Assembly: GCF_017301635.1 (NCBI RefSeq) | Contig: NZ_CP071091.1 | Location: forward strand, 5,034,001-5,098,000 | Reading direction: 5' to 3' | Length of the DNA stretch: 64,000 nucleotides | Origin: Myxococcus landrumus | GTDB lineage: Bacteria > Myxococcota > Myxococcia > Myxococcales > Myxococcaceae | Shown: one piece after another, positions 16,967 through 44,184 of the stretch | Numbering within the stretch: position 1 is the first letter of the stretch | Layout: each line of letters opens with the position of its first letter | Translations under genes and position numbers: made by a program | Notes under the pieces: generated by a model | Told to the model about the DNA's origin: nothing | The model's database searches: none | Seen by the model: the letters and a program-made list of their open reading frames with translations, nothing else

Positions 16967-19294
16967 TCAACGAGGACCAGGCACGGCTTCGGTCGCGAAT
17001 CGCTCCACGCACGGGGCATCCACGCCTCGGTCATCGTCCGTGCGCACGCGCCCCAACTTCACTCGTGTGTCTTCCGTGCACTCGGCCGAGACGAGGCCCC
17101 TCCGGGCCCCTCGCGCGATGAGCGCATCCACTCGCAGCTCGCCTCCCTCCATCGCCGCGAGCACGGATTCCTGCGCGGCTCGTGATTCAACACCTGTCGC
17201 GTCCAGGCTCGCGCGGGTCTCCACCGAGAGCGCTGACTGACCGCAGCGGTCGAGCTCCGCGTCCCTCAAGACCACTCGCGCATTCTGCGCCGCGAAGACA
17301 CAGGCGCCCGAGGTCTCTCGCACAACCGCGCCCTCCACTTCCGCGCGGACCTGACGCAGGTGAAGTCCCTCGCCGGTGATGCCGTCGTTCGAGCGCACTC
17401 GCGCCACGGTGATACCCCGCAGCGCCAAGCTGCCACCCACGGCGACGACGCCGTACTCCGCAGCGCCATCCACGCGCAGGCGCCGTGCCCGCACCTCCGA
17501 ACCCGTGAAGTGGAATGCTCCGTGGCTGCCGCTGTCGCGCACCACCACGTCTTCAAGCAGGACACCCGTCGAGGCACCGACGCTCAGGCCCGCACGCGTG
17601 GCGCCCACCGAAAGGAAGCCGCGAACCTCGAGCCGAGACACACGCATGGCGGAGACACTCACCTCGTGTCCTCTCGCCCGCACGTCCTCCAAGACCAGGA
17701 CGCCCTCCACTACCGAGAAGGCCGCGCCTCGGCTCCCTTCCGCCACCGCGTGGCGAATCTCGGCGTGGCCGCCATCCATCCCTACCGCGGTCACCGCGCC
17801 CAGGAAGCGGACGTCCTCCAGCGTTGCTCGAGCCTCGGCCCCTCGGACGCGCACCGCACGCCGGAAGGGGCCCGTGAAGGTCGCACCCGACAACCAGGCT
17901 TCCTGGCGAGGTGACCCGGAGGGCTTCGCCGCGCCCATGCCCGCGTCCTGCCTCGGGGCCACGCCTTCTGTCGGGCCTCGCGTGGATACGGTTCGCAACG
18001 CAACGCCCCGAGGCACTGAGCCCCCCACCACCGCGTTCGTCGGCGGCAACAGTCGCGCATTCCTTGGCCAGAGAGCCACGGCCGGCGGCCGAGTCCCCGC
18101 TCCCGCCCCTCCTGCATACACGGCCGGCTGCTGAGCCCCAGTTCGCACTCCTCCCTCATTCACTGCCACTTGCTGAGTTCGCTCGCGCGCGCCTCCCGCA
18201 TCCACGGCAGTCTGCTGAGGCCCCGCTCTCGCCGCATCCACGACCGTCCGATGAGGCTCCGCTCGCGCCGCATCCACGACCGTCTGGTGAGGCTCCGCTC
18301 GCGCCGCATCCACGACCGTCTGATGAGGCTCCGCTCTCGCCGCATCCACGGCCGTCTGCTGCGGCCCCGCTCTCGCCGCATCCACGACCGTCTGATGAGG
18401 CTTCGCTCGCGCCGCATCCACGGCCGTCTGCTGAGGCCCCGCTCGCGCAGCATCCACGACCGTCTGCAGAGGCTCCGCTCGCGCAGCATCCGCATCCACA
18501 GTCGTCTGCCGCGCCCCTCCCGCATCCACGGCCGACTGCTGAGGCCCCGCTCGCGCCTCATCCACGACCGTCTGATGAGGCTCCGCTCTCGTCGCATCCA
18601 CGGTCGTCTGCCGTGCCCCTCCCGCATCCAGGGCCATCTGCCGCGTCCGCACCGCCCCTACCTCCACGGCGCCCTCCAGCAGGACCCCCACGGTCTCCCC
18701 CGAGGTCTCGAAGTGCGCTTGCGTCGCCTCGAACCTTCCGGACGTCACCCGCACCGCCCCTTGGTGCTGCCCCACAAAGCCCACCCGCTCCACACGAACC
18801 CTTCCACCGCCCGACACCTCGACCCCCCACGCACCTCCCCGCACGGACAGGTTCCGAAGCACCACGCCGCCCTCCCCGGCCACCCTCACCCCCTCGCCGT
18901 CCTGCCCACCCCCATCGAGCACCGTGGCGTCCCCCTGCCCCTCCAACCGGATGTCACCGGAGACCTCGATAGGCCCCCGGTACTCTCCGGCCGCCAGGTA
19001 CACCGTCAGCGGGCCCGGGCGCGCCAGCGCCTCGTCCAGCGAACGCAGGGGGCTTTCCCGCGTCCCCACCCCTTCCCGCGCCGCCGCCGCATCCACCCAG
19101 ACCTCGGCCCGGGGGACCTCAGGCCGCGTCACGGCAACGGATTCCCGGGAAGCCCCACCACTCCGGCAAGCCCCCAGCAGGAGGATCAGCAGCGTCGGAA
19201 ACGTTCGGAAGCGCACGGGAGCGGGAATCGTAGTCCATCTCCGCCGGGCCGCGCCGCGCGCGATCAGCCACACACGCCAAATGATCGAAATCAC
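16967..19294 (-). CDS. Lipoprotein with right-handed beta-helix split by a 12-residue repeat array
   Basis: 775 residues from a GTG at 19294; a GTG at 19216 (VRFRTFPTLLILLLGAC) would give a compact lipoprotein signal, so the start is uncertain. The lipobox LLLGAC predicts lipidation. Then come a DUF1565-like opening (WVDAAAAREGVGTRESPLRS, LTVYLAAGEYRGPI) and beta-helix coils (about 100-215). Residues 218-395 are tandem copies of a 12-residue unit (VDAARAEPHQTV). A second beta-helix block follows (about 440-750), rich in V-x-V-x and G turns. Such solenoids bind polysaccharide or decorate the envelope; the role here is unknown. Codon period is kept through the repeat. Confidence 0.8.
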   Translation of the reverse strand: MISIIWRVWLIARGAARRRWTTIPAPVRFRTFPTLLILLLGACRSGGASRESVAVTRPEVPRAEVWVDAAAAREGVGTRESPLRSLDEALARPGPLTVYLAAGEYRGPIEVSGDIRLEGQGDATVLDGGGQDGEGVRVAGEGGVVLRNLSVRGGAWGVEVSGGGRVRVERVGFVGQHQGAVRVTSGRFEATQAHFETSGETVGVLLEGAVEVGAVRTRQMALDAGGARQTTVDATRAEPHQTVVDEARAGPQQSAVDAGGARQTTVDADAARAEPLQTVVDAARAGPQQTAVDAARAKPHQTVVDAARAGPQQTAVDAARAEPHQTVVDAARAEPHQTVVDAARAEPHRTVVDAARAGPQQTAVDAGGARERTQQVAVNEGGVRTGAQQPAVYAGGAGAGTRPPAVALWPRNARLLPPTNAVVGGSVPRGVALRTVSTRGPTEGVAPRQDAGMGAAKPSGSPRQEAWLSGATFTGPFRRAVRVRGAEARATLEDVRFLGAVTAVGMDGGHAEIRHAVAEGSRGAAFSVVEGVLVLEDVRARGHEVSVSAMRVSRLEVRGFLSVGATRAGLSVGASTGVLLEDVVVRDSGSHGAFHFTGSEVRARRLRVDGAAEYGVVAVGGSLALRGITVARVRSNDGITGEGLHLRQVRAEVEGAVVRETSGACVFAAQNARVVLRDAELDRCGQSALSVETRASLDATGVESRAAQESVLAAMEGGELRVDALIARGARRGLVSAECTEDTRVKLGRVRTDDDRGVDAPCVERFATEAVPGPR
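18110..18640 (-). repeat. 36-bp minisatellite inside the beta-helix lipoprotein
   Basis: About 14 copies of a 36-bp unit, with 33- and 39-bp variants and more diverged copies at 18110-18180. The unit reads CGCATCCACGACCGTCTG on the plus strand followed by ATGAGGCTCCGCTCGCGC. Two subtypes alternate, giving EPHQTVVDAARA and GPQQTAVDAARA in the protein. All variants keep the frame. Confidence 0.9.
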
Positions 19295-22092: not shown

Positions 22093-22806
22093 GTGACATA
22101 CAACGGCCGCGTGCCAGGACGTGAGACTGCAGCAGCCAGGCGAGAACGCGCGGTGAAGGTCATGGAGCGGCTGGAAGCCTCCATGCCCGATGCCCGCATC
22201 GAGCTGGACTACCAATCCCCCTTGCAACTGCTGGTCGCGGTGATGCTCTCCGCCCAGTGCACGGACAAGCGGGTCAACATGGTCACCCCCGCCTTGTTCC
22301 AGCGCTTCCCCACCGCGCGGGACTACGCGGCGGTCCAAGCCTCGGACGTCGAGCCCTTCATCCGCACCTGCGGACTGTACCGCGCCAAGGCGAAGAACAT
22401 CGTCGCGACCGCGAAAATCCTGGTGGAGCAACACGCGGGAGAAGTGCCCCTCCAGCGCGAGTTGCTCGCCGAGCTCCCCGGCGTCGGCCGCAAGACGGCG
22501 GGCGTCGTGTGCATCCACCTGGGCGGCGACAACGCCTTCCCCGTCGACACCCACGTGAAGCGACTGGCCTATCGACTCGGCTTCACCACGCAGGAGGACC
22601 CGGACAAGGTCGAGAAGGACATGCAGGCCGTCCTGCCTCCGGAGCGGTGGATGATGGGACACCAGCTCCTGGTGTGGCATGGGCGGAGGACGTGCTTCGC
22701 CCGCTCGCCCGAGTGCCAACACTGCGTCGTCGCGGACCTGTGCCCCAAGAAGGGCGTGACGTCGTCTAGCGCGAAGCCGAAGGCGTCTGCTCGCGCGAAG
22801 CCTTGA
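22093..22806 (+). CDS. nth: Endonuclease III (DNA glycosylase/AP lyase)
   Basis: 237 residues from a GTG at 22093; a GTG at 22111 is an alternative and would shorten it by six residues. The helix-hairpin-helix [12 protein letters not shown] contains the catalytic Lys, VDTHVKR carries the catalytic Asp, and the C-terminal [4Fe-4S] cluster is complete as C-x6-C-x2-C-x5-C ([17 protein letters not shown]). It removes oxidised pyrimidines. A Lys/Ala/Ser tail follows the cluster. The gene converges with def and overlaps it by 41 nt. Confidence 0.93.
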
Positions 22807-23293
22807 GGCGCTTCATCCGCTTGCGGATGAACTCGCGCTTCAGCGTGGAGACGTGGTCCACGAAGACGGTGCCATTCAGGTGGTCCGTCTCGTGCTGCAC
22901 GGCGATGGCCAGCAGCTCGTCACAGCGCAGCGTCTGCTCGTTGCCGTCCACGTCCAGGTACTTCACCGTGACGACGGCCGCGCGGTCCACGTCCTCCGAC
23001 TCACCAGGGATGGAGAGGCAGCCCTCGGTGTAGGTCGTCTCACCCTCGAGCGCGATGAGCTCCGGGTTGATCATCGCCAGGGGCTTGGCGTCGGGCTGGC
23101 GCGGCGTGGTGTCCAGGACGATGACGCGCTGGAGCACACCCACCTGCGGCGCCGCGAGGCCCACGCCGTCGGCGGCGTACATCGTCTCGAACATGTCCTT
23201 CACCAGTGCGCGGATGGAGTCATCCACCTTCGTCACTGGCTTGGCCTTCTGCTTCAGGATGGGGTCGGGCCAGATAAGAATGTCGCGGACCAT
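22766..23293 (-). CDS. def: Peptide deformylase
   Basis: 175 residues from the ATG at 23293. All three motifs are present: [10 protein letters not shown] (43-52), EGCLS with metal ligand Cys92, and QHETDHLNG with His134, catalytic Glu135 and His138. It removes the formyl group from nascent proteins. The C-terminus adds a basic Lys/Arg helix and a short tail. It lies 56 nt downstream of the 2312-residue gene on the same strand and may be its operon partner. No fmt gene is present beside it. Confidence 0.95.
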
Positions 23294-23349
23294 GGGTGCC
23301 CTCTTAACTCCCCACGCGCGGAGGGGCAACCCCGCCTGAGCCCCCTCTT

Positions 23350-26300
23350 TCAGTCGAGCAGACTGCGCGCGTACTCGGCCCGCAACCTGTCGTCGCCGAG
23401 CGCCTGTGCCGCCTCGGACAACACGCTGCGAATCTGCTGCGCGCGGTGCTGGAGCGCGGGGTCTGGATGACCCGCGAAGCGCAGCGGGTGGAACTCGGCG
23501 GCGAGCAGCTCGTAGGCCCGCTTGACCTCCTCGCCACCCGCCGTGCGTGCAAGCCCCAGCACGGTGAAGTAGTCCGCGTCCTGAATCTCCTCGAACTTCG
23601 ACTCGAGCCGACGCACATCCAGCTCGGGAGGAAACGCGTCCGGGTCCTCGACGTTGGAGGGCTGGAGCGTGATGAGCCCCAGCGTCCTCGCCACCGAGAG
23701 CGCCTTCAGGGCCGCGTCCTGCGGAACCCCCGCTCCCAACAACAGCGCCTCCAGCGTGTGCTCGCCATCCACCTGGGACAGCAACTGGAGGTCTCGCGAC
23801 GGCAAGCCGAAGTCATCGGGTGACAGATGCAGCTCACCTCGCGTGACGCGTGCCCGGAGGCTTCCCGCGGCCTCCAGCAGCGACTCTCCCGTCAGCGTGT
23901 TGCGCAGGGCCTCCGCCAGCAGATACAGCGGCGGACGCGTGGCGGCGGCGAGGGCCACCTCGTGCGGCGCCGGCTCCTGCACCAGCCGGTACAGCGTGGA
24001 GGGCTCCGACAAGGCGTCGAGGAAGACCTGCTCCGTGTAGCGCTGCACCAGGGGCACGGACTCGGACTCGCGCAGGTAGCCTCGACCTCGGAGCGCGTCG
24101 AGCAAGGCCCCCGTGGTGGCGCTGCGCACGAGCCGGAGTTCGCCCTCCTGCCTCGCGTCGATGAGGCCATCCGCTCGGGCTCGGTCGACGAGCGACTCGC
24201 CCGAGGCGGACGAGACGGCTCCCACCAGCGAGCCATCCCGCAGCCACAGGACCCGCAGCGCGTTCATCACCTTCAGCTCGAGGCGCACCTCCATGCGCGC
24301 CTCGCAGAGCCGGAGCACCAGACGGGCAAGGCCCTCCTGCGTCACGCTGCCACTGCGCGAGACGGCCAGCTCGGGACGGCCCGGTGGGGCCTCCAGCGGG
24401 AGCAGCGCGGCCCTCGCCTGTGCGGCGGCCTCTTCCGCTTCCCGACGCCCACGCTCCTCGAGTTCCTGGCGCTCCCGCTCCGCACGGACTCGCTCCTCCG
24501 CGGAGTCTGCTTCCAGCTTCGACTTCTCCGCGTGCAGCGACTCCAGGGACTTCCGTGCCTCGTCGTGCTCCGCGCGCAGGTGGGCGAGCTCCGCCTCGGT
24601 CCGCTGAAGCTGGGATTGGAGCTGCGTGAGCTGCTCCGTGAAGCGCGTGGATTCCGACAGGAGGCGGGACTCCGCGTCGCTTCGCGCCTGGGCTTGCTCG
24701 GCGATGCGGGACTCGGCTTCGGCTCGCTGACGGGCTTCCACGTCCAGGCGGACTTCCAGCGCCGTGCGATGACGACCTTCCGTCTTCGCCCTGGCCTCCG
24801 CTTCGGACTGCGCCTGCTGGGCCTTCTGGACTCGGGCCTCCGCTTCCGCGCGGACCGCGGCCTCGGCCTGGGCCCGCGCTTCCGCCGTCTCGGACCGCTT
24901 CGACTCCGACTCCGCTTTCGCTTCCGCTGCGATGCGCTGCTGCTCGTTCGACTCCGCTTTCGCTTCGGCCTCGGCTCGCAGCTTCGCCTCGGAGTCGGCC
25001 CTCGCTTCGGCTTCCGCGCGTCGCCTCGACTCGGACTCCGTCTGCTCGTCTGCCTCGGCCCTCGCCTGCGACTCCAGCTCCGCCTTCGCTTCGGCTTCGG
25101 CTCTCAGCTTCGACTCGGCTTCCGCTCTCGCTTCGGCTTCGGCTCGCTGCTTGGACTCGGCTTCGGCTCGCGCCTCGGCTTCTGCTCGCAACTTGGCTTC
25201 GGCCTCGGCTCTTGCTTCCGCCTCCTCGCCCTCGCTGGCGGTGAGCTCCGCGCGCGTCTCCGAGGCCGTGCGCTGCTTTGCCTCGGACGCTGCTTTTGCC
25301 TCGGCTTCGACTCGCAGCGCTGCTTCTGCCTCCGCCCGCTCCTCGGCCTCGGCCCTGGCCAGCGACTCCAGCTCCGCTTTCGCTTCGGCCTCCGCTCGCA
25401 GCTTCGCCTCGGACTTCGCCGTCTCCTCGGCCTCGGCCCTGGCCAGCGACTCCAGCTCCGCTTTCGCTTCGGCCTCGGCTCGGTGCTTCGCCTCGGTCTT
25501 TGCTTTTTCCTCGGCCTCCGCTCGGGCCTCCGCCTCCAGCTCCGCGAGCAACTCCGCTTCCGCGCGCAGCTTGGACTCGGACTCCGCTCGGGCTTCGGCC
25601 TCCGCTCGGGCCTGGGCGACCGCGTCCAATCGCGCGCGCGCTTCCGAAGCGGCCTGTGACTCCAGCTCCGCGAGCGCGTGAACCTCGGCCTTGGCTCGCG
25701 ACTCCGCCGCCTCGCGGGCTCGGCCCTCGGACTCCGCTCGAGCCTCGGCTTCCACTCGCGCGCGCGACTCCAACTCCAACTGAGCTTCCGCCTCCACCCT
25801 CGCGCGCGACTCCATCTTCACGCGCGACTCCATCTCGAGCCGAGCCGCCTCCACCGCCGCAGCACGCGCCTCTACCTCCGCTCGCGCCAGCGCCTCCGCC
25901 CCCGCCCTCGCCTCCGCTTCGACCAGCGCCACTTCCACGGACTTCACTCGCGCTTCCAAGCCTCGGCGCTCCTGCACCTCCGACTCGGCTCGGGCCTCCG
26001 CATCGACTCGCCCAGCCGCCTCGGACTCGAAGCGGAGCTCGATTTCCTTCAGCGCCTGCGTCGCCGCGGCAGCCCGCGTCTCGGACTCTTCCTTCTCCAA
26101 CTCCAACTGCTGGAGCTTCGACTCCAACTCCACCAGTCGCGACTGTGCCTGCGAACGCGCCAGTCCCTCCTGGTCCGCGCGCTCCTGCGCATCATCTCTC
26201 GCGATGAGCGCGTCCTTCGCTTGAAGCTCGCCCTTCGCCAGCGCCTCCGCTCGCTCGCGCCCCAGCTCCGTCGCCTCCGCCTTCACCGCTTCCAACAGGC

Positions 26301-29300
26301 GTCTCAGCTCGACGAAGTCCTGCTCTCGCGCCTCGAGGCGCTCCAACGTCGCCTTCGCGGCGGCCTCCACCGTGGCCCGCGCACGAGTCTCGGCTTCCGC
26401 TCGGGACTCGGCTTCGTCGAGCCTCGACTGGAGACTGCTCAGCTCTTCGCGCAGCACTCCCACTTCCGTGCCACTGCGCAGGTCCAAGTCGGCTTCACGC
26501 CGCCTCGCCATCTCCAGCTCGGCGTCGAACTCGCGGCGCTGGCGCTCCGCCTTGACTCGCGCATCCTCGAGCTGATGCTCCACCTCCGCGCGCAGCGTCG
26601 CCTCTCGCGAGTGTTCCTCCTCCAGCGCATCGAGACGCGACTGGAGGGATTGGACTTGGGCGGCTTCGCGGTCCAGTCCACCTCGCAGCGACTCGTTCAG
26701 CGCTCGCGCCTCTTCGATTCGACGCTCGGCGTCCTGGCGAAGCTCGACCTCCTGCTCCAGCGAGGCCTTCAGCGTGTGGACTCGCTCGTGGGCTTCCTCG
26801 AGCTGACGCTCGAACTCTTCCTGGCGCGCCGTGCTCTCCGCGGGCGGGGGCTCGGTGCTGGTGACGGCCGTCGTCGCGTCGGACTCGCTGGATTCGTGCC
26901 CTTGCTCGGTGGGCTCCTCCATCAGGGTCAACGAACCCGCCCGCGATGACTCCTCTTCGGTGGAGCCTTCCGCGTTCGAATCGAACCAGCCCTCGCTCGC
27001 GGACGGTTGGACTGGCAGGGCGGCTTCGGGCTCGGCGTCGAACCATCCCGCCGAGACATCCATCCCGGCGGAGGCGGTCGCTGTTCTCTCGACGGCGGGG
27101 GGCGTAGTGCCTCTGCGCGAGTCCTCGCTGCCGTCGTCCAAGAAGGCAACGGGGGCGGGCGACTCGGGCTCCGCTTCTTGCACCACGCCGCTCGAGGCCA
27201 ACGCATGCTGAATCGAGTCCGTACCGGCTTCGGTCAAGACCATGCCGAAGGCGGGCGTCTCACGACTCTGCTTCAGGTTTGCCCAGGGCGCGGCTTCGCC
27301 TGGCGTGGAGTCCTCTTCTTCCGCGCGCGGCGCTTCATCGGCGCTCTCGGGCGGTTCCTCGCCATCCTCCTGGCGCACCTTCGCTTGCAGCTCCGCCTCC
27401 AGGACATCCCAGGGCGAAGCGGGGAGCGACTCTTCTTCTGCTGGCGCGTCAGGCTCGGATTCCGCAGCGCGCGGTGCCTCGGGAGCGGCGGATGCTTCGC
27501 GTGCCTCGGAGCCCCCCGCGCCTTCGCTCGGGCCTCCACTCAGCGCGGTCTCAATCTCGGGGTCTGGTGGCAACTCCGTCCATGCCCCGGAGTCCAGGGG
27601 TGCCGCCACCCGAGGACCATCGCCGCGCATCGCCGCCAGCTCCGCTTCGGCCGCGGAGAGCGCATCGTCGTGCGAGGGCTCAGGTGCATCGACGTCGAAG
27701 AAGCCCTCCTCCCCAAGCCGAGGCGCCAAGGCCACGGGCCGCGAGACAGGCACGGAGACAGGCTCCTCCGTCCACGCGAGCTTCCCCACGGGCAGCGGTT
27801 CCGGCACCGCTTCAGCCTCCGAGGATGCGGCCTTCCACTCCGCCAGCGCCGCGACCTCGGGAGAGTTCACGCCGTAGAGGACAGTCGACGGACCGGTCGT
27901 GCCACCACCTTCCGTCATCGCGCTCGAGAACCCCTCCGAGAACACGTCACCGGGACCACCGGTGGCACTCCCGAAAGAGTCCGCTGCGCCATACGCGGCA
28001 TCCACTGCCGCCGCGTCCAACGCATCCGCGGTGCTGCCGTCTCCGCGCGGGTCTTGTGAGCCCACGGTCTCGAAGGCGTCCGGCGCCGGATGGGTCCAGG
28101 GGTCTGATGCGAAGGCTTCGTTCCCTTCTGGGCCGACGCCAGCGTATCCGGAGGATGCATCTACGCCATGGCTGCTCGCGCCTGCGCTCTCGGCACCCCA
28201 AGCCTGTTCACTCGCGTCGCCGATGTGCTCGCTCGCGGCTTCGCTTTCGTGGCTCCAGGTCTGATGGGTCGTGTCTCCTGGTGACGCGTCCGCGCCATCA
28301 CCACTTCCTGGGTGACCTGCTGAGTCCCAGGTCTGCGCTTCCGATGAAGCTTGAGTGACGGCGGAAGCATCCGCACCGTACTCACTCGCGCGGTGGCTCT
28401 CCGCGCTCCAGGCTTGGGCGTCTGTCGAGGCATCCGTGCCGGAGGCATCGCCGTCCGCGCCCCATCCTTGCGAACCTTCTGGCGCATCCGCGCCATCACT
28501 GCTCGCGGGGCTGCCTTCCGGACTCCAGGCTTGAGTGCTCGCAGATACAGCCGCGCCGTACTCATTCGCGGGATTGGTCTCGGCGCCCCAGCCTTGCGCG
28601 TCCGCCGAAGCATCCGTGCCGTGCATGCCATCGGCATTGGCCTCGGCACTCCAGCTGTGCGTGCCGGAAACATGGGCCTCCGCACCCCAGGATTGTGCGT
28701 CACCTGCGGCATCCACGCCCGGCGTGCCTGAGGCAGAGCTCCCAGCCTCCCAGCCCTGCGCGTTCCCTGAATCATCCGCAGGATACGTGCCGGTGGCAGT
28801 GCTCTCGCCGCCCCAGTTCTGCGCGGCCGCTGAGACATCTCCACCTTGAGAGCCAGAGGTATTGCCCTCAGCCCCCCACGCTTGTGCATTCCCTTCAGCA
28901 TCCACGCCTGGCGTGCCTGAGGCAGCGCTCGCAGCATCCCAGCCCTGCGCGTTTCCTGAGGCGTCTACGCCTGATTCGCCGACGGCAGTGCTCTCACTGC
29001 CCCAGCCCCGCGCGTTCTCCGCGGCCTCTTCGCCTGACACGCCGACGGCAGTGCTCTCAGCATCCCAGCCCTGCGCGGTCCCTGAATCATCCACGCCTGA
29101 CGTGCCGACGGCAGTCCGCTCACCGCCCCAGTCCTGTGCGTTTCCTGAGGAATCCCCCCCTTGAGAGTCAGAGGCATTGCCCTCAGCACCCCAGGATTGA
29201 GCGGTCCCGGAGGCGTCTACTCCTTCCGAGCCTGCGGCATTGACGTCCGTAGTCCAGGCTTGCGCATCGGCCGCGGCATCCGCGCCGTACTCGCTCCCCG

Positions 29301-30288
29301 GGCTGCCCTCAGCACTCCAGGCTTGAGTATCGCCCGCAGCATCCGCGCCGTACTCGCTCCCCGGGCTGCCCTCGGCATTCCAGGATTGCGCATCGGCCGC
29401 AGCATCCGCGCCGTACTCACTACCTGCGCTGCCCTCAGTACCCCAGGCTTGCGCCTCCGCCGCTGTATCCGCGCCCTCCTCGCCCACTCCCCCTGGCGGA
29501 ACATCTCCGCCGGGGTCGCCCTCTGCCCGGAACACCTCTCCCGCTGGCAGCGCGCTCCCGTCGAAAGCCTCGCTCCCTCCGCCCACCGCCGCCGCGCCCC
29601 AGTCCTCCCCGCCCCCCGCCAACGCCGACTGGCTGGAGGCCATCGCCGCGGCCTCCGCCTCCTGATTCGCCTGCGCCAGCGCCGCCGGCACGTCCAACGT
29701 CGAGCGGAGCTGCTGCTCTTCCGCCCTCGCCGTGCGCTCCTCGCGCGTCATCGCCGCGAGTTCCCAGTCCGTCTGATGCAACGGGGCCAAATCCCCGAAC
29801 AGCGCGTTCGCCAGCGTGGGGTCCCCCGCCACCGCTCCCGGCGCCGTCGCATGCCACGCCTCCGTCTCCTCCCCACCCTGCCCCGCGTCCCCGCCCACCC
29901 CCACCAGTGTCCGGTTCTCCAGGACATGCCAGGCGTCCGACTCGGACGGTGCCCGAAGCAGCGAGTCCACCAACGCCACGAAGTTCGTTCCATCCAGCGG
30001 CAGCGGCGCCACCGGCGCACTGAACCCCGCGATGGACTCGCCCAACAGCAACACCCGCGCCGTCTTGCCGTCCGGATGCTGGAGCAATTCCTCCAGCACC
30101 AGCCGGCCTCGGCCGCTCTCGACGCCTGGCGCCAACACAATCAGCGCCGGCAGGTAGTGCCCGTAGGCAATCAGCGCATCCGCGGCCGAGGTCGCGAGGA
30201 TGACCTCGTGCCCTTCGCGGGTGAGCAGGCGCCGCACTGCGGCGATGGTGGCGATGTCGTCGTGGACGAGGAGGACCGGTGCGCCCAT
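23350..30288 (-). CDS. Giant pseudo-receiver / Trp-repeat / coiled-coil / DUF4388-like / J-like protein
   Basis: 2312 residues. In order: a receiver-like domain (4-115) where the phospho-acceptor position is Ala53 ([10 protein letters not shown]) although the acid pair HDD is kept; a linker; about 20 copies of a 21-residue repeat with a fixed Trp (about 276-719); an acidic disordered stretch to about 1150; a coiled coil of about 810 residues rich in Ala/Glu/Arg with 14-residue repeats; a DUF4388-like region (about 1970-2200, [28 protein letters not shown]); and a C-terminal J-like domain ([20 protein letters not shown]) whose HPD is HPL. No signal or membrane segment, so cytoplasmic. It begins 15 nt after priA. 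Function unknown; a scaffold is likely. Confidence 0.9.
24700..25760 (-). repeat. 42-bp repeats encoding the coiled coil
   Basis: The densest part of the coiled coil is built from a 14-residue (two-heptad, 42-bp) unit such as [14 protein letters not shown] with many variants. On the plus strand it reads as monotonous TCGGCTTCGGCTCGC-type sequence, which also opens long false frames on that strand. Confidence 0.85.
28130..29470 (-). repeat. 63-bp tandem array encoding 21-residue Trp repeats
   Basis: About 20 units of the form A-Q-x-W-x-A-E-x(4)-G-x(2)-G-x-D-A-x-G-x, for example [20 protein letters not shown]-type copies. Most units are 21 residues; a few are 18-22. The Trp is conserved in almost every unit and negative charge dominates. 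The three copies nearest 29400 are the most alike, which points to recent expansion at the N-terminal end. Confidence 0.9.
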
Positions 30289-30303: not shown

Positions 30304-32697
30304 CTACAGCATGGCCCCCGGATCCACGTCGATCACGACCTTCACCGCCGACGGAACGTCCACCAGGGCCGCTTCGACCCTGGCGAGCAGCGGGGCAAGC
30401 GCCACATGTGTCGGCCCCTTCAAGAGCAACTGCCAGCGCGTCTTGCCCCGGATTTTGGCGATGGGCGCCACCGCCGGCCCCAACAACCGCACCCCCACCG
30501 ACGCCGGGGGCATGTTCCGGGAGATGATGTTCCCCAGGTGCCGAGCCACGCTGGCCGTCTGCTCCGGATGCTCCCCCTCCAACCGGATGGAGGCCATCCG
30601 CGCGAAGGGCGGATACGCCAGCGCCTTGCGCCACTCCAGTTCCTGCTGGGCGAAGCCATCGAAATCATGGGCCAACACCCGCTTCACCGGCTCCGCGTCC
30701 GGGTTGTACGTCTGCACCAACACCCGGCCCGGGTCCTTGCCACGCCCCGCCCGCCCCGCCACCTGGGTCAACAGGTGGAAGGTCCGCTCCGCCGCCCGGA
30801 AGTCCGGTATCGCCAGCGAGGTGTCCGCCATCACGACGCACACCAGCGTCACCCCCGGGAAGTCGTGCCCCTTGGCCACCATCTGCGTGCCCACCAGCAC
30901 GTCCAGCTCCCGCCGGGCGAACGCCGCCAGCATCTCCGTCAACTTCTCCGCGCTCGTCGCCGAGTCCCTGTCCAGCCGCGCCACCCGCGCCGTCGGGATG
31001 CGCTCCAGGACCTCCGCCTCCACCCGCTCCGTGCCGATGCCCAGCTTCAACATCGGCCCCGTACACTCCAGGCACCGGTCCGGCACCGGCATCGCCAGCC
31101 CGCAGTAGTGGCACACCACCCGGTTCTGCGAGCGGTGGTGCGTCATGCACACGTCACACGAGGTGCACTTCAGCGACACCCCGCACACCTCGCACAGCAA
31201 CACCGTGCTGTGCCCCCGGCGGTTGAGGAAGAGGATGACCTGCTGGCCCTTCCCCAGCGTCTGCTCCATCGCCGCCAGCAAGGGTGGACTGAGGATGGGC
31301 GCCTCGTCCGTCATCATGCCGTCGCGAGGACGCTCCTGCCGCAGGTCCACCATCTCGATGGTGGGCATGGGCCTGTCGTCCACCCGCCGCTTGAGCTCCA
31401 GGAGCCGGTAGCGGCCCTTCTTCACGTTCTCCAGCGTCTCGAGCGCGGGCGTCGCGGAGCCCAGCACCACCACCGCCCCCGCCTGCTTGCCACGCACCAC
31501 CGCCAGGTCCCGGGCCTGGTAGCGCAAGCTGTCGTCCTGCTTGAAGGACGGGTCGTGCTCCTCGTCCACGACGATGAGCCCCAGGTTCTCCACCGGCGCG
31601 AACACCGCCGAGCGCACCCCCACGGCAATCTTCACCTCGCCCTTGCGAAGGGCCTGCCAGTGGAACAGCCGCTCCCGGTCCTTCAGCGCCGAGTGCAGCA
31701 CCGCCACCTCCGAGCCGAACCGGCTGCGGAAGCGGCCCACGAGCTGCGGCGTGAGCGCGATTTCCGGCACGAGGATGAGGCTGCCCTTGCCCAGCGACAG
31801 CGCATGCTCCGCCGCGCGCAGGTACACCTCCGTCTTCCCGCTGCCCGTGACGCCATGGAGCAGGAACGGCTGGAAGGCGCCCGTGTCCAACGCCTCGCGC
31901 AGCGTCCCGCCCGCGACGTCCTGCTCTGGAGTGAGGCGGTCCGGCCGGCCTTGAATCAGGCCCTCCTTCACCCCGGCCTCCAGCTTCTTCTCCTCGACGC
32001 GGACCAGGCCCTTCGAGGCCAGGCTCTTGAGGTGCGCCCGAGCCCCCGGAATGGCGTGGCTCACCTCCTCCAGCGGCGCGCTTCCGCCCACGGCCAACAG
32101 GTAGGCCAGCGCCGCGGACTGCGCATGCGCTCGCGCCAGCGAGGGTGGCACCTCGTTCACCAGCGCCACCGCGAAGTGCTGGACGTCGGGCTTCGCTTCC
32201 TTCTCGTCCACCGGCTTCGACAAACCTGGAGGCAGAGAGCCTCGGATGACCTCACCCAAGGGGTAGCGATAGTGCTCGGCCGCGAAGCGCAGCAGCGCGA
32301 TGAGGTCCTTGGGCAGTGAGGGCGAATCCTCCAGCACGCGCTGGATGGGCTTGAGCCGGACGTTCTCTCCGGGAGGCCGGGCCGCCGGGCCCAGGTAGAA
32401 GCCCAGGGCGGTGCCTCGGCCGAAGGGCACCAGGACACGCTGCCCCGGCGCGAGCTGGCTCGCGAGGGACTCCGGCACGGAGTAGGTGAACTCACCCCGG
32501 ACGGGGCGAGCCACGGCGATGGAGGCCAGGACAGGAGGGCTCGCACTCACGGCGGGAGCCACTGTAGCGGCCTGTTCCTGGAGCGACAGTTCCCGGCCAG
32601 GTCTCGCACGCGAGGTGCGCTCCCCCGTGGAACCCGAGGTGGGGGCCTCCTCCGCGGAACCCTGCGCCGGCTCGTCCCACAACGCTCGCTGCTCCAT
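30304..32697 (-). CDS. priA: Primosomal helicase PriA
   Basis: 797 residues from the ATG at 32697 with AAGGGAG at good spacing. The N-terminal DNA-binding part (about 70-250) follows a variable Ser/Ala/Pro leader. Helicase motif I is GVTGSGKTEVYLR, motif II DEEHD, and the zinc-binding Cys pairs are CEVCGVSLKCTSC, VCMTHH, VCHYCG and RCLEC. C-terminal helicase motifs include ATQ-like VGTQMVAKGHDFPGVTLV and QVAGRAGRG. It reloads the replisome at stalled forks. It heads a minus-strand row priA, giant, def. In many bacteria priA sits near def and fmt, so the giant occupies an unusual slot. Confidence 0.95.
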   Translation of the reverse strand: MEQRALWDEPAQGSAEEAPTSGSTGERTSRARPGRELSLQEQAATVAPAVSASPPVLASIAVARPVRGEFTYSVPESLASQLAPGQRVLVPFGRGTALGFYLGPAARPPGENVRLKPIQRVLEDSPSLPKDLIALLRFAAEHYRYPLGEVIRGSLPPGLSKPVDEKEAKPDVQHFAVALVNEVPPSLARAHAQSAALAYLLAVGGSAPLEEVSHAIPGARAHLKSLASKGLVRVEEKKLEAGVKEGLIQGRPDRLTPEQDVAGGTLREALDTGAFQPFLLHGVTGSGKTEVYLRAAEHALSLGKGSLILVPEIALTPQLVGRFRSRFGSEVAVLHSALKDRERLFHWQALRKGEVKIAVGVRSAVFAPVENLGLIVVDEEHDPSFKQDDSLRYQARDLAVVRGKQAGAVVVLGSATPALETLENVKKGRYRLLELKRRVDDRPMPTIEMVDLRQERPRDGMMTDEAPILSPPLLAAMEQTLGKGQQVILFLNRRGHSTVLLCEVCGVSLKCTSCDVCMTHHRSQNRVVCHYCGLAMPVPDRCLECTGPMLKLGIGTERVEAEVLERIPTARVARLDRDSATSAEKLTEMLAAFARRELDVLVGTQMVAKGHDFPGVTLVCVVMADTSLAIPDFRAAERTFHLLTQVAGRAGRGKDPGRVLVQTYNPDAEPVKRVLAHDFDGFAQQELEWRKALAYPPFARMASIRLEGEHPEQTASVARHLGNIISRNMPPASVGVRLLGPAVAPIAKIRGKTRWQLLLKGPTHVALAPLLARVEAALVDVPSAVKVVIDVDPGAML

Positions 32698-32870
32698 GGC
32701 ACTCCCTTCGACCGCCACCCCTACCCCTTCCGTCCTGCCGCCATGGCCACAGTGCCAGGGGCCTCTGACACAGGCCGGGCCCCGGACGCCAGCACCACAT
32801 GCTGGGAGCATGCTCGAAGCCCCACGCCCAGCACCGGCCAGGGGCCGTTCCCGACAGGGCGCCCAGCGGT

Positions 32871-38406: not shown

Positions 38407-41400
38407 TCAGCGCGGCGCGCGCAGGGCGAGGTATCGCTCGGACGCGGCGAAGCGCAGGAGTTCCACCAGCTCCGCATCCTGCGAGCGGCGGGCTCGAATC
38501 ACCGTCACCGCGGGGCCCACGGCTCCGCAGGCCACCAGGCCCGCGCGATTGGCGGAGTCTCGCGCGGCGTCCACGAGGGATGAGGCCTTGAAGTCGCGCG
38601 TGCCGGGCTCGAGGAGCTCCAGGGTCCGCTCCAGGGCCCGCGGCGAGAGGGTGTCGCGCACGAGCTTCGCATCGGCGCTGGAGTCCTTCGGGTCCTTGAG
38701 GACGGTGGACAGCAGGGCCAGGGCGCGCAGGAGCTGAGCGCCCTTCATCGCGCGCAGGGCGAGCAGGTCCGGGGAGAGCGAGAGCAGGGCTCGGCCCGCG
38801 TGGAAGCGCAGCTCGGCGGCGGAGAGCGCCTGGCGGATGATGGCGCGGCCGACGAGCAGGCGCGGCTTGTCGGTGTGGGCGGCGGCGAAAGGGGGGCTGT
38901 CGTCGTCGGCGAGGACGAGCTCGGGCAGGTTGACGGAGAGGATTCGCGCCGAGGAGTGGAGCGCGTCGAGGACCGCGGGGGCACCTGGGCCGGCGACGGC
39001 TCGCAGAGGCTCGGAGGCGTCCGCGGCCCGACCCTGGGCGGGGAACAGCCGACACAGGGCGATTCCCGCGCACGCGAGCAGTTCACCAGCGGGGGTTCTC
39101 AGACCGGGGTGGCGCAGGCCGGCGCGCTCGTCGGCGGTGAGCGGTGGATGCTGGAGGCGCGGGGCGGGGCCTTCGCGTCCGGCGAGGGCTTCGACGATTT
39201 CCCGCATGAGGGCCGCGCGCGCGGTGTCGCCTCGGGTGTCGAAGAAGTCGGCGAGCTGTTCGTAGGTGGCGGTGTCGAGCGGGCGCTCTCGCAGTTGGCG
39301 GAAGACCTCGGGCTCGGTGTCCGAGGAAGGAGCGGGCGCTGGAGGGATGGGGTTTTCGCGCGTCTCCGTTGCTCCGACGGAGAGCGGCGGTGGCGGCTTG
39401 GAGATGAAGGAGCGGCCCTGGGCGGGGCTGGCTTCAGGGCGGCCGCCACGGACGACTCGGCGCACGGGGTCCATGCGGCCTGGAGGCGCTTCCCAGGAGA
39501 TGACCCGCGTCTCTGGGACGGGCGCGGCATCGAGGTCCACGGCGCTTCCCGTGATGAGGTCGATGGCCTTTCCGCCTCGGGGGTTCTCGGGGGGATTGGC
39601 GGGACGCGATGGGCCTTTGGCTCGTGCTGGCGCGCTCTCCGTGGGCGGGGCGGAGATGGGTGCGCTCTCGGCGGCGGGTGCACGCGGGGGTTCGCCGCGT
39701 GATGCGGGAGCGCGCGGGCTTGGGGCTGGCGCATTGTCGGCGGCAGCGGATGCGCGAGCGGGTTCTCCTCGCGACGCCGATGCACGCGGCTGGACGGGCG
39801 CTGGCGAGGGTTCGGTGGCGGGTGCGGCGCGAGATGCCGGGTTGCGCTGACCTGGTGCTGGTGCACTTTCCGCGGCGGATGAAGCGCGAGACGGCTCTCC
39901 GTGAGCCGCCGATGTTCGCTGACCCGACGGAACAGGCCCCTCGCTGGCAGGGGCCGTACGCGACTGCGCACCACGCCCGGCAGCACCACGCGGACCTGGC
40001 GCGGCTCCGCTCTCGTCAACAACTGGAGCACGAGATGGTTCGCCACGAGGAGCCGATGCACGCGGGCCCGACTTGGGTGTGGCGGGGTTCTCTGTCGCGG
40101 GTGGAGGCCGAGCTGAATCTCCGCGCGATTGCGGGCTGCGCTGGCCTGGCGGTGACGAACTCTCAGCGACGGGTGAGAGCCGCGGGGGCTCACCGCGAGA
40201 CACGGGAGCGCGCGCGTTCAACGCGGGCGCGTTCTCCGCGACAGGTGAAAGCCTCGGTGGCTCACCACGAGCTTCGGATGCACGCGGACTCGGCGAGGGC
40301 GCACTCGCCGCCGAGGGCGATGGCCGGGCTGATTCGCCGTGAGGCGATGAAGATCTCTGCCCCGGTGCGGCTGTGGCCTCAGCAGCAGCGCGAGCGCGAG
40401 GAGATTCTCCACGAGATGCGGCTGCGGCCTCCGAGGCAGCACGAGTGCGAGGAGATTCTCCACGAGATGCGGCTGCCCCCTGCCCCGGCGCCGATGTGGA
40501 CTCGGCAGCCACTTGCGTACGCGCAGGTTCGGCACGCGACGCTGATGCGCGCTGATTCGACGCGGGCGCTGACGGTCCCTTCTCCTCGGTGCGTGACGCG
40601 AACTTGTCCGCACTAGACTGCGCAACGTGGGTCCCGAAGACAACGGTCGACCCCGAGAGGACAGGCTGTTCCAGCGCTGGCCCCAAGGGTCCAAGCGCGT
40701 CCATGCCGGACTCAGCAGCGAAACCGGACGGGTTCGTGGATTCCTCGGCAGGAGGCGCAACAGCTCCCTTCGATGGGATGAGCGTCTCGGCTCCGGTGCC
40801 CCGCGGCGCCAGCATCTTCCGCACTGGCTCTTCATCCGCGCCGCGAGGGCCTCGTCCTCCTCGCGGACCTCCAGATGATGCATCGCTCGATGCCGCATCG
40901 GGCCCTGCGGATGACGTGACCTCATCGGACAGGTCGCCCCCCGCCGCCACGAGCGACGAGGTCGCCACCGGCAATGGCGCCAGCGGAGACTTCGGACCAC
41001 TCGGCTCTCGACGAGGTATCGCACTGCGTGGAGGCTCGGGAGGCGCGGGCTCCCGCTCCTCGAGCGCCTGCTTCAATCCCTCCGCGCGACGCGCGTAGAC
41101 CCTCGCACGGTCAGGATTGCCGAGAGACTCACGCCACAAGTGCGCCAGCCGCTCCCACGCTCGAATCCGCTCGACTTCGTCCTCCGTCGCCGTGGCCGCA
41201 TGCTCAAGCGCCCACGCCGCTTCCCCAGTGTTGCCGCGCGCCAGCAGGCGCTCCACGAGCATCAGCCACGCGTCCTTGTGACCCGGCTCGAAGCGCACCG
41301 CCTGACGCAGCTCGTTCAGCGCCCCCTCTGCGTCACCCGACGACTCGAGCGTCGCCACCCACTCCAGACGCGCCTGACGCGCGGCCGGCCCACGTGGCTC

Positions 41401-44184
41401 CCTCGCGAGCTGCGCCCGCAAGAGCTGACCCAACGCCGCCGTGTCTCCCAGCTCCCTCGCGAGCCAGAGAAGCCTCTCGAGTGCCTGTTCGCTCTCGGGG
41501 CTCTCGATGAGCACCTCACCCCATGCCCACTGCGCGAGGCGCGAATCCCCCAGGGCGTCCTCGGCGGTGCGCGCAAGCACTCGCAACGCCTCCGCCCGGT
41601 CAGGAGCCCTGCGCGGCGCCGTGGCAAGCATGGTCCGCAACCGCGATGCAACAGTCCCTCGCGCCTCACCCTCCACGCAGAGGAGCAGCCCCGCGAGCGC
41701 GGGCAACAACCCAGGCACGAGCGACTCCGCCGCCTCGAAGTCCACGCGCGCCTTCTGTGGCTCCCCCATGTGGAGCCAGCGCTCGCCTCGAGTCAGCAGC
41801 GCGGTCGCACGCGCATGCCCCGTCCGCGCCCTTTGGATGGCCTCATCGAGCGCTCGCCGGACCAGGGAGGCATCGCCTCGGGAGGACAGCAGACGGACCT
41901 GCTCTCGCAGCGCGGAGCGGTCCCCCGTCAGCTCGACAATCTCCCCGTACATGCGCGCGGCCCCCGCGGGGTCCTGGAGCTCGGTCTCCATCACCTCCGC
42001 GAGACGCGTCAGTGCTTCCGCACGAGCGGCCGGGTCCTTCGCGCGGTCCGCACGCTTGAGATAGAGCTGGGCCAGCTCCCGCCACGCACGACGCGCGATG
42101 AGCTGTGCCTCGAGCTTCTGTGAGCGCGCCCATTCCTCGGCGGACTCTCCCTTGCCAGCGACCGACGCTCCGGGCTTCTCCGTGCTCGCGGGTGGCACGG
42201 AGTCTGGTCGCGGAGTGGAGGGAACACTCGCGGCGGGCCGGGCACTCAGCGCGGCGAGGAGGTCCGCGAGAGGCATCTCCATGGTCTCCGAACGAGGCGC
42301 CTCATTCGCGAGGCTCGGAGTCGCCGCGGGGATGACCTGAGTCCTCGCACGAGAGGGCTCCACGGTCGCCGGGAGTTTGACCGGAGGCTCCTCCGCCTTC
42401 GTCGCGACGTTGCGCTCAGGCACGGGCTGCGTCGCGCGAGGTGCCTCGGGCACGACAGGCTCGCTCCATGGGACGGAGAGCACCTCTGGCGCCACACCTG
42501 GCATTTCGACCAGGGTCTTCGTACGGAGGTCGGCTTCTGACTCCGACTCTTTCGAGAGGGACGGCGTGGCTCCGTGGCTCGCATCCGTGGGCTCGGCCGA
42601 AGGCGCGGACTCCGCCGGGAACACTCCCGGAGCAGCCAAGGACCGCTCCTCTGCGCCTTGTGACACCAACGCCTTTGGCGCCTCTCCGGTCGAGGACGTC
42701 TTGTCCTCCGAATGAGGGACGGACTCCTTGGCCTCGCCAGTCCGAACCTCATTCGAGGTCGCCGCGATGGCGGTGTCCGTCAGGCCTGAGCGACTCACGC
42801 CTTCAGGCGTTTCCGCCTGGAGAGACACCGCATCGGACTGTTGTGACGCGCCGGGTGCCTCACCCACTTGAGATGTCGCGGCATCAGCTGGTTCCGTGCT
42901 CGACACCAGAGCTGCTTCGCCGCCACTGCTCGCGTTGGACGCCTCAGTTGCCAACGCACCAGCCTCGTTCGTGGAAGCTCCACGCTCCGGAGATGGCGAC
43001 GCCCCCTGGCTCCGCTCATCGACTGGCGAAGACGTCGAATCCGCCTGCACGTCGACGCGCTCATCACCAGCAGACGACGGGGACACCGCTCCGTTCGCAG
43101 CCGCCTCATCCGCGCTGGGCACAGCCGTCACGGCGGACTCGAGTCCACCGTGTTCGTCAGCAGCAGGTGACGGAGGCACATCAGGCCCACTCGACACCTG
43201 CTCCTCGGGCGGAGCCTCAGTGGCCGCATTGCTTTCGCTCCGCACATCACCCAGAGGCAATTGCTGCCCGTCCGGCTCCGCGCCCACAGGTCGAGCCGCC
43301 GCAGCTTGCAGGCTCACGCTCGACTCAGCCGAGGTCCGCGCAGGCGCAGCGCGACCATGACTCCCACTCGACGGGCTCTCCACCGAAGCCACATCCCACG
43401 GAACCAGCAGCGCCTGCGCTCCATCCCCCTTCGACTCTTGCGCAGTCGCCTCGACGCCCACGGGCGCATCCGCGCCCTCCGTGTCCAATCCCAGCGGGGG
43501 ACCCTCGACCTGGAACTGGGCCCACGACAACTCCATCGTCAGCGAGCGGCGCGGCGGCGACACCGTCGGGGCGACCGAGGCCACCCCCACCGCATCCACC
43601 ACGGTGGCCATGTGAGAGTCCGCGTCCTCCCAGACAGACACGCCCCTCACCCCTGACTTCAGGGCCGGCAAGCTCCCGAGAACCCCCCTCGACGCCACCG
43701 GCTCGCGGCCTTCCTGCCTCGCCCGAAGCACCTCGAGCACCCGCCGCGCACGCCGGTCCTCCGGAAACTCCTCCACCAACCCCTCGAGCACCAACATCGC
43801 GCGAGGCACCTGCCCCGTCTTGCGCAACACCCGCGCGAGCTGCCTGCGCACCGCGCGCCGCACCTCCACGGGCGCCGTCGCCGGCACCGAGCCCAGCAAC
43901 TCAATGGCAACAGTCTCAGCCCCCGCCAGACGCGAGAAGCGTCCGAGCGCGGCGGCCAACCGTGGCGACATGGGCAACGTGCGGCCCGCGTTCGCCAACT
44001 CCTCGAATGCTCGCGACGAGGACCCTTCGCGCAGCCACCGCACGGCGGACCGGAAGTGGCGAGCCACCCCCTCTACTGCTTCAGCCGTCGGCCCGACGTC
44101 GAGCATGCCGGTTCGGGGCACCTCCTGTCGGACGGCCCCAGACTCCGGCGTGCCGGCGCCCTTGCCGTTTCTCACGCCACCCAT
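38407..44184 (-). CDS. Giant TPR protein with disordered repeats
   Basis: 1925 residues from the ATG at 44184. A perfect AGGAGGT lies 14 nt before Met27, so the true start is uncertain. Order: helical TPR-like start (35-150, AVRWLREGSSSRAFEELANA); Ser/Glu/Pro-rich disorder to about 680; a TPR block (about 690-1045, RAWRELAQLYLKRADRAKDP, ALNELRQAVRFEPGHKDAWL); a Pro/Ser/Arg region (1195-1530) of loose 24-residue repeats around SRGEPPR; and a conserved helical end (about 1620-1925: EVFRQLRERPLDTATYEQLA, AELRFHAGRALLSLSP). No signal or membrane helix. The end faintly resembles an M48-like fold without HExxH. Function unknown. Confidence 0.85.
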   Translation of the reverse strand: MGGVRNGKGAGTPESGAVRQEVPRTGMLDVGPTAEAVEGVARHFRSAVRWLREGSSSRAFEELANAGRTLPMSPRLAAALGRFSRLAGAETVAIELLGSVPATAPVEVRRAVRRQLARVLRKTGQVPRAMLVLEGLVEEFPEDRRARRVLEVLRARQEGREPVASRGVLGSLPALKSGVRGVSVWEDADSHMATVVDAVGVASVAPTVSPPRRSLTMELSWAQFQVEGPPLGLDTEGADAPVGVEATAQESKGDGAQALLVPWDVASVESPSSGSHGRAAPARTSAESSVSLQAAAARPVGAEPDGQQLPLGDVRSESNAATEAPPEEQVSSGPDVPPSPAADEHGGLESAVTAVPSADEAAANGAVSPSSAGDERVDVQADSTSSPVDERSQGASPSPERGASTNEAGALATEASNASSGGEAALVSSTEPADAATSQVGEAPGASQQSDAVSLQAETPEGVSRSGLTDTAIAATSNEVRTGEAKESVPHSEDKTSSTGEAPKALVSQGAEERSLAAPGVFPAESAPSAEPTDASHGATPSLSKESESEADLRTKTLVEMPGVAPEVLSVPWSEPVVPEAPRATQPVPERNVATKAEEPPVKLPATVEPSRARTQVIPAATPSLANEAPRSETMEMPLADLLAALSARPAASVPSTPRPDSVPPASTEKPGASVAGKGESAEEWARSQKLEAQLIARRAWRELAQLYLKRADRAKDPAARAEALTRLAEVMETELQDPAGAARMYGEIVELTGDRSALREQVRLLSSRGDASLVRRALDEAIQRARTGHARATALLTRGERWLHMGEPQKARVDFEAAESLVPGLLPALAGLLLCVEGEARGTVASRLRTMLATAPRRAPDRAEALRVLARTAEDALGDSRLAQWAWGEVLIESPESEQALERLLWLARELGDTAALGQLLRAQLAREPRGPAARQARLEWVATLESSGDAEGALNELRQAVRFEPGHKDAWLMLVERLLARGNTGEAAWALEHAATATEDEVERIRAWERLAHLWRESLGNPDRARVYARRAEGLKQALEEREPAPPEPPRSAIPRREPSGPKSPLAPLPVATSSLVAAGGDLSDEVTSSAGPDAASSDASSGGPRGGRGPRGADEEPVRKMLAPRGTGAETLIPSKGAVAPPAEESTNPSGFAAESGMDALGPLGPALEQPVLSGSTVVFGTHVAQSSADKFASRTEEKGPSAPASNQRASASRAEPARTQVAAESTSAPGQGAAASRGESPRTRAASEAAAASRGESPRARAAAEATAAPGQRSSSPHGESARPSPSAASAPSPSPRASEARGEPPRLSPVAENAPALNARAPVSRGEPPRLSPVAESSSPPGQRSPQSRGDSARPPPATENPATPKSGPRASAPRGEPSRAPVVDESGAAPGPRGAAGRGAQSRTAPASEGPVPSGQRTSAAHGEPSRASSAAESAPAPGQRNPASRAAPATEPSPAPVQPRASASRGEPARASAAADNAPAPSPRAPASRGEPPRAPAAESAPISAPPTESAPARAKGPSRPANPPENPRGGKAIDLITGSAVDLDAAPVPETRVISWEAPPGRMDPVRRVVRGGRPEASPAQGRSFISKPPPPLSVGATETRENPIPPAPAPSSDTEPEVFRQLRERPLDTATYEQLADFFDTRGDTARAALMREIVEALAGREGPAPRLQHPPLTADERAGLRHPGLRTPAGELLACAGIALCRLFPAQGRAADASEPLRAVAGPGAPAVLDALHSSARILSVNLPELVLADDDSPPFAAAHTDKPRLLVGRAIIRQALSAAELRFHAGRALLSLSPDLLALRAMKGAQLLRALALLSTVLKDPKDSSADAKLVRDTLSPRALERTLELLEPGTRDFKASSLVDAARDSANRAGLVACGAVGPAVTVIRARRSQDAELVELLRFAASERYLALRAPR
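39590..40600 (-). repeat. Loose 24-residue Pro/Ser/Arg repeats in the TPR giant
   Basis: About 12-14 degenerate units of the type ASRGEPPRxxPxAExAPxPG-QR. Period drifts between 20 and 28 residues, and the core SRGE(P/S)xR is the best-kept element. Basic and proline-rich, it contrasts with the acidic disorder further upstream in the protein. Confidence 0.75.

Follow-up and report, generated by a model that had tools for sequence, protein, structure and literature searches.

Which kind of protein is encoded by the giant gene that lies between priA and def in Myxococcus landrumus, and what could such a protein do? The gene is a single uninterrupted open reading frame (ORF) of 2312 codons, counted from an ATG, at positions 23350-30288 on the minus strand of the window, by which we mean the whole 64,000-nucleotide stretch analysed here (contig NZ_CP071091.1, positions 5,034,001 to 5,098,000; the source genome is a single contig of 10.37 Mb). 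All features of the giant gene given below lie on this strand, and residue numbers refer to its 2312-residue product. We found that the two ends of the protein, an N-terminal pseudo-receiver and a C-terminal module (C-module) with a DUF4388 (PATAN) domain and a J-like domain, are conserved among orthologues despite the loss of their active residues. The two ends stay while the middle varies, as judged from the protein lengths in our order set and from the much shorter genes that fill the priA-def interval of two genomes.

Terminal domains

The pseudo-receiver domain spans residues 1-125 (29914..30288) and is supported by Pfam, a family profile and a structural model. Taken alone, the sequence matches the Pfam family Response_reg weakly (residues 5-81, E 0.07, 13.7 bits, cut-off 30.2), but this family is matched at E ≤ 0.01 by 25 of 25 related N-termini, and a profile of the N-terminal family retrieves solved receivers, among them RR468 (chain 4ja2, E 3.3e-8). 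The AlphaFold (AF2) model of the N-terminus has a receiver fold with a predicted local distance difference test (pLDDT) score of 85.6, and is matched by Foldseek to DivK, YycF, RR468, the CikA pseudo-receiver and FrzS. The receiver-like start that had been proposed from the sequence is thereby borne out. D10 and D11 are kept in the giant and A53 occupies the phospho-acceptor position. Across 40 sequences of the order, the first acidic residue of the receiver pair is Asp in all 40 and the conserved receiver Lys is Lys in none, while the phospho-acceptor position holds Ala (30 sequences), Ser (5), Gln (3) or Gly (2), and never Asp.

At the other end, the PATAN domain (residues 1980-2130, 23899..24351; Pfam, family matches and model) is followed by a small folded unit modelled mostly as confident helices (residues 2131-2237, 23578..23898) and by the J-like domain (residues 2239-2306, 23371..23574; Pfam, PDB profile and Foldseek). 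The DUF4388 match lies near the Pfam cut-off of 25 bits, with 19.5 bits (E 0.001) in the whole protein, 23.5 bits for the C fragment and 25.2 bits in the genome search, and the family is matched at E ≤ 0.01 in 28 of 28 C-terminal family members. The DnaJ match is above its Pfam cut-off (E 6.9e-7) and recurs at E ≤ 0.01 in 26 of the same 28 proteins. The J fold was also recovered by a PDB profile (E 5.9e-12) and by Foldseek with a probability of 1.00, though with an E of just 8.1e-3. Both the DUF4388-like segment and the J-like end of the original prediction are present by these measures. The model of the C-terminal 343 residues is good overall (pLDDT 88.8), with pLDDT under 50 at residues 245-248 of this fragment, inside the small folded unit. 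When the C-module was searched against PDB folds, none of the 481 matches reached E 0.001; the listed matches with a probability near 1 all fell on the J-like part. The source genome has 16 DUF4388 matches, a large and little-described set.

The His-Pro-Asp (HPD) tripeptide of J domains is replaced by HPL in the giant (residues 2267-2269, 23482..23490). HPD occurs in one of the 40 order sequences (G041) and in one of the 20 phylum sequences (G038, locus L225; this genome in fact falls within the order, and the locus is flanked by neither priA nor def and probably not orthologous). This test discriminates, because HPD is retained in three further J proteins that the source genome encodes. The clear J fold could point to a specialised co-chaperone that recruits Hsp70 to a bound partner, the more so as M. 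xanthus is described as having 16 J-domain proteins and PilZ-DnaK chaperones (PMC10313047), but with HPD retained in only one sequence each of the order and phylum sets we consider this role very unlikely.

On sequence grounds we thus reject both a phospho-relay role, the phospho-acceptor Asp being found in 0 of 40 order sequences, and an Hsp70-driving end. With a receiver fold but no phospho-acceptor Asp, and a J fold but no HPD, the giant would fall outside the phosphorylatable response regulators as well as outside the Hsp40 co-chaperones. The proposal that signalling inputs sit at the ends is not upheld, as both ends lack the residues that make such domains signal or drive Hsp70. Because the receiver has no Asp and the J domain no HPD, the ends look like binding modules rather than like a phospho-switch or a co-chaperone.

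Distribution and gene order

A C-module match at E ≤ 0.001 was obtained in all 145 genomes of our order sample, which is weighted to the own family of M. landrumus. The strong matches, in the own family and in parts of families f3, f6, f7 and f8, are orthologues. In f2, f4, f5 and f9 the matches are weak and mostly come from the J or PATAN part of some other protein; among these weak-match genomes, G006 and G038 have matches that cover nearly the whole C-module. The closest named relatives in the scan are Myxococcus species, with C-modules 92% identical to that of the giant. A record titled Comamonas sp. KCTC 72670 (BNCN01000002.1, L120) has a C-module 88% identical to that of the window together with a myxobacterial gene order, and looks mislabelled.

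In the window, priA (30304..32811, minus strand) lies 15 bp upstream of the giant gene and def (22766..23329, minus strand) 20 bp downstream, according to the ORF list and a neighbour scan, which confirms the predicted single gene between the two. Both ends of the protein share one frame in all 39 order loci (the same-frame receiver matches are partly so by construction, as the receiver profile was built from order N-termini); 36 of these loci have priA at most 1.5 kb upstream, 36 have def downstream, and 33 have both. As an independent check, phmmer with the N-terminus of the window alone gave at least 37 bits in 37 of the 39 loci, with 22 bits in G125 and 14 bits in G126. G006 (L104), which lies away from priA and def and has an N-terminus scoring 0 bits by phmmer, was left out of the order counts. 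Among 46 named loci, 36 have both ends in a single frame and 10 are truncated where the contig starts; def adjoins in 44 and priA lies at most 1.5 kb upstream in 27, many of the priA misses being contig ends. A sequencing error or gene fusion is therefore rejected, since many other assemblies show both ends in one frame; separate frames, as would be expected of two joined genes, were seen in none of the order loci.

Beyond the order, another ten families of the phylum (f10, f11, f14, f15, f24-f28 and f31) gave profile matches stronger than E 1e-49, and the family extends to other classes of the phylum. The 20 phylum loci, G038 included, have priA upstream in 12, def downstream in 7 and both in 5. 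There is thus a dedicated group of orthologues that share the arrangement of the two ends, and its age far exceeds that of a single species.

The pair of neighbours was also followed in 27 weak-match genomes, a hand-picked subset of the genomes whose strongest profile match falls short of E 1e-40. In 11 of them priA lies directly beside def, as judged by a span of 2.0-2.65 kb from the PriA 3'BD match to the def match and as seen in ORFs in G143 and G024; in three (G022, G037 and G191) the gap between priA and def is about 0.75-1.0 kb; and in the remaining 13 the pair is not shown together or has no priA match. The short gene in the G022 gap (L229) encodes a receiver (E 4.2e-21) and a J-like domain (E 6e-22) without the PATAN part and without the rod. 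A 236-codon frame between priA and def in G191 (L231) has a J-like match (E 2.7e-9) and, by eye, a receiver-like start, again without PATAN or rod, and no profile match was seen in the G037 interval. The priA-def pair is therefore seen both in the presence and in the absence of the gene, which often keeps its place where present.

This gene order would be explained if the giant had a tie to its neighbours, for instance as a tether for PriA, the helicase of replication restart, or for Def, an enzyme on the ribosome side. The frequency of priA within 1.5 kb upstream (36 of 39 order, 27 of 46 named and 12 of 20 phylum loci, with contig ends behind many of the misses) fits such a tie. However, the pair can stand alone, as in the 11 genomes above, and def does not adjoin in 13 of the 20 phylum loci; we regard a tie to the neighbours as distinctly unlikely.

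Variable middle region

Among order orthologues the whole protein ranges from 526 to 2418 residues while both ends align; naturally short versions of about 750-1060 residues are found in family f3. In the giant, the pseudo-receiver is followed by a low-complexity linker (residues 126-274, 29467..29913) with single Trp motifs common to related genera (W145, and W175 in 'DWELAA'), by a Trp array of mostly 21-residue units (residues ~275-735, 28084..29466; Trp gaps and repeat detection), and by an acidic Pro/Ser-rich linker defined by its composition (residues 736-1153, 26830..28083), which has single Trp motifs including two WFD.

Trp-to-Trp gaps of exactly 21 residues occur 16 times in the giant, 15 of them inside residues 282-609, and a repeat detector that is independent of Trp finds 13.0 units of 21 residues. 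Trp is the sole column conserved in all 13 units of the window array, the next column reaching 0.92. The underlying DNA has tandem repeats of 63, 126 and 189 bp that are 67-84% alike. The array is recent: genome G113, 99% identical to the giant in both ends, has only 4 gaps of 21 against 16. Elsewhere the Trp units have other lengths: 23 (46) residues in M. dinghuensis, 18 and 21 in G110, 20 in M. RHSTA-1-4, 16 in KCTC 72670, 19 in M. qinghaiensis, 18 in M. eversor, 14 in Citreicoccus, and 20-22 in Hyalangium and alike. In a set of 42 proteins, WFD is present in 14 copies in M. dinghuensis versus 1-4 in the other Myxococcus, Pyxidicoccus, Corallococcus and Citreicoccus rows, and W[DE]xLE in 4 copies in Citreicoccus versus 0-1 elsewhere. 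At least two arrays have thus been amplified from a motif that is scarce in relatives, which lends plausibility to repeated docking motifs.

The repeat threshold was passed by 36 of the 71 proteins scanned, a set that includes some organisms twice. The Trp column is fully kept in 13 of these 36 rows (from 11 organisms) and partly kept in three; as the repeat table orders ties by letter, Trp in first place means that its column is fully kept, and only in the window array is Trp the sole fully kept column. Many orthologues have no Trp array at all. The array of about 20 Trp repeats in the original prediction is there, but the 21-residue array is a species-level feature and does not define the family. 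We accordingly reject the Trp repeats as a defining part of it; the orthologues without them remove the repeats, but not the two-ended protein, from its definition.

A serious rival concerns the Trp arrays alone, which could be neutral products of replication slippage without a role of their own. Strong differences in copy number between sister species, as between G113 and the window, would be expected from slippage, and repeats free of Trp occupy the same stretch in Corallococcus and others. The strict retention of Trp in all 13 window units despite diverged DNA units argues the other way, as does the amplification in at least two arrays of a motif that is rare in relatives. On this evidence we judge neutral slippage somewhat less than evenly likely.

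The linkers lead into a helix-prone rod (residues 1154-1963, 24400..26829), 810 residues long by our own composition score. A heptad-like hydrophobic core is present in residues 1154-1489 and 1882-1937, and the Ala/Glu/Arg stretch between them (residues 1490-1881, 24646..25821) has few hydrophobic residues at a/d positions: Leu, Ile, Val, Met and Phe make up 31-50%, 56% and 0-25% of the a/d positions in these three parts, respectively, each value being the best of 7 frames per block, a measure that has no shuffle control. Glu-Arg/Lys pairs at i,i+4 are numerous over the whole rod (78 and 85 versus about 32 in shuffles), pairs at i,i+3 are below expectation, and a Fourier test of the whole rod gave no signal at periods of 3.5 or 7 residues (z 0.0 and -0.3). 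The predicted coiled coil of about 810 residues therefore stands as a helix-prone stretch of that length but not as one continuous coiled coil, because the periodicity is absent and residues 1490-1881, about half of the rod, are without a hydrophobic core. We infer that this middle part resembles a single alpha-helix; it may alternatively be an alanine-rich coiled coil with phase shifts. NCBIfam matches of the rod to MSCRAMM adhesins were rejected as low-complexity matches to its Ala/Glu/Arg sequence, far below the cut-offs.

Comparison with known proteins

A close parallel in architecture is offered by FrzS and AglZ of M. xanthus, pseudo-receiver and coiled-coil motility proteins (PMC1974792, PMC4546325) that are reported to localise to the poles and to couple MglA or SgmX to motility machines (PMC1974792, PMC4546325, PMC11580455, PMC12632262). 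Like these proteins, the giant begins with a receiver fold that lacks the phospho-acceptor Asp; one report gives Ala at this place in FrzS, as in 30 of our 40 order sequences, and 1076 residues of coiled coil in AglZ, a long rod like that of the giant (PMC4546325). Unlike them, the giant has a linker of about 1000 residues between receiver and rod, carries DUF4388 (PATAN) and J-like domains after the rod, is encoded between priA and def, and has an N-terminus no closer to FrzS than to other receivers. It may be regarded as a pseudo-receiver rod scaffold analogous to FrzS and AglZ, and not as a member of their group.

The giant could nevertheless be a regulator of type IV pili or polarity in the manner of FrzS and AglZ, with the pseudo-receiver on a rod and the PATAN end docking on a motor such as PilB. 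This idea is encouraged by reports that in cyanobacteria PilB is bound by the PATAN domains of regulators (PMC10519157, citing Han 2022) and that two M. xanthus PATAN proteins surfaced in a co-occurrence search with SgmX (PMC11580455). PilB itself is above its family cut-off in 167 of 195 phylum genomes, but it is equally strong in genomes without a strong C-module match (e.g., G143, G144, G159 and G160), so that the co-occurrence of the giant with this nearly universal protein is uninformative. Moreover, in the profile search with the N-terminal family FrzS (chain 2gkg) is matched less well than other receivers (E 0.0021 versus 3.3e-8), and none of the 10 neighbouring window ORFs that were scanned matches a motility family. 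A role in pilus or polarity regulation is possible but unlikely in our estimate.

Within the same genome, a 630-residue protein encoded elsewhere (L242:595-2487, G000:C1:197094-198986) has a receiver, DUF4388 and J domain in the same order as the giant, followed by TPRs, and is thus a compact relative in architecture. It has full-length matches of 84-100% identity in 13 of 21 genomes searched, with three more at 37-49%, and, by eye, has Ser at the phospho-acceptor place. In contrast to the giant, it keeps HPD, adds the TPRs, sits at a different locus and is without linker, Trp motifs and rod. The domain combination as such, at first noted as undescribed, is therefore not exclusive to the giant, which is set apart by its position between priA and def, by the lost active residues at both ends and by the inserted elastic linker and rod; these features are unusual. 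Among the listed titles and abstracts of open-licence PMC papers on DUF4388, PATAN, myxobacterial J-domain, receiver and coiled-coil proteins and priA, none concerned the giant. Another protein of this genome, of 1135 residues with DUF4388, J domain and TPRs (L243:326-3733, G000:C1:5471825-5475232), keeps HPD in its J domain and has many AGPGGVPM-like Gly/Pro near-copies in its N-terminal half.

More distant parallels are partial. Synechocystis PixG, PilG and TaxP2 combine PATAN and receiver in one chain, but their PATAN domain is N-terminal, and the passage describing them mentions neither a rod nor a J-like domain (PMC10519157). TopJ, from the cytoskeletal terminal organelle of Mycoplasma, is likewise a long protein with a J domain, and the NCBIfam TopJ model matches the giant through its J domain alone (E 0.026). 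TopJ has an aromatic/Gly-rich box and, to our knowledge, no receiver or PATAN domain; beyond the J domain we see no sign of common descent.

Proposed role

The reading that we favour, with confidence about evenly balanced between acceptance and doubt, is that of an elastic cytoplasmic scaffold in which the ends would be binding domains, the rod a spacer and the Trp motifs docking sites. No clear membrane span is apparent in the protein, as the highest 19-residue Kyte-Doolittle mean is 1.58. Without the residues that phosphorylation and the driving of Hsp70 require, the pseudo-receiver and the PATAN and J-like module would persist as binding domains and hold partner proteins. The rod, which would measure about 120 nm if its 810 residues were fully helical (0.15 nm per residue), would act as a spacer that determines how far apart the ends lie. 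The acidic low-complexity linker, probably disordered, would carry the short Trp motifs as repeated docking sites, either for one partner or for one another, and tandem duplication would change their number in each lineage. Of the long cytoplasmic scaffold joining signalling inputs that had been predicted, the scaffold stands as the best reading but the signalling inputs do not.

Several observations weigh against this elastic scaffold. Of the 20 phylum N-termini, 14 passed the alignment threshold, and of these 6 keep the phospho-acceptor Asp and 4 the Lys; the ancestral receiver was possibly phosphorylated, and the loss of its active residues may have been stepwise. Only 11 of the 20 phylum loci gave a receiver in frame with the C-module, one of the 11 being the doubtful G038; of the 9 that did not, 4 are truncated by a contig end. 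Nearly rod-less versions exist in G039, G041 and G124, so a long spacer is not needed everywhere. The Trp column is absent from 20 of the 36 repeat rows and many orthologues have few Trp residues; Trp multivalency is not a property of the family.

Other features of the window

A promoter scan gave no promoter-like site and a terminator scan 2 terminator-like sites versus 3.5 in shuffles; neither is informative. A second very long ORF of the window (38407-44184, minus strand) encodes 1925 residues with TPR matches. Another ORF (16967-19294, minus strand) encodes 775 residues with a beta-helix match; its FAM47 match probably reflects low complexity.

Biological significance

A more far-reaching version of the proposal, tentative and somewhat unlikely, is that in this widely conserved adaptor family both terminal signalling domains have become pure binding modules and that the Trp valency of a disordered linker was re-invented in each lineage by amplifying different motifs. 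If true, evolution would tune the valency of a bacterial scaffold, possibly of a condensate or polar cluster, by tandem duplication. The family provides a natural series for asking whether the number of docking sites in a bacterial linker is selected. Work on pseudo-receiver and J-like domains usually deals with single proteins. This family keeps one operon position in many lineages of the phylum, and its sequences show directly that active residues have been lost at both ends. With short natural and giant versions to compare, and with an M. xanthus orthologue that is amenable to deletion, it would offer a tractable test of pseudo-receiver function.

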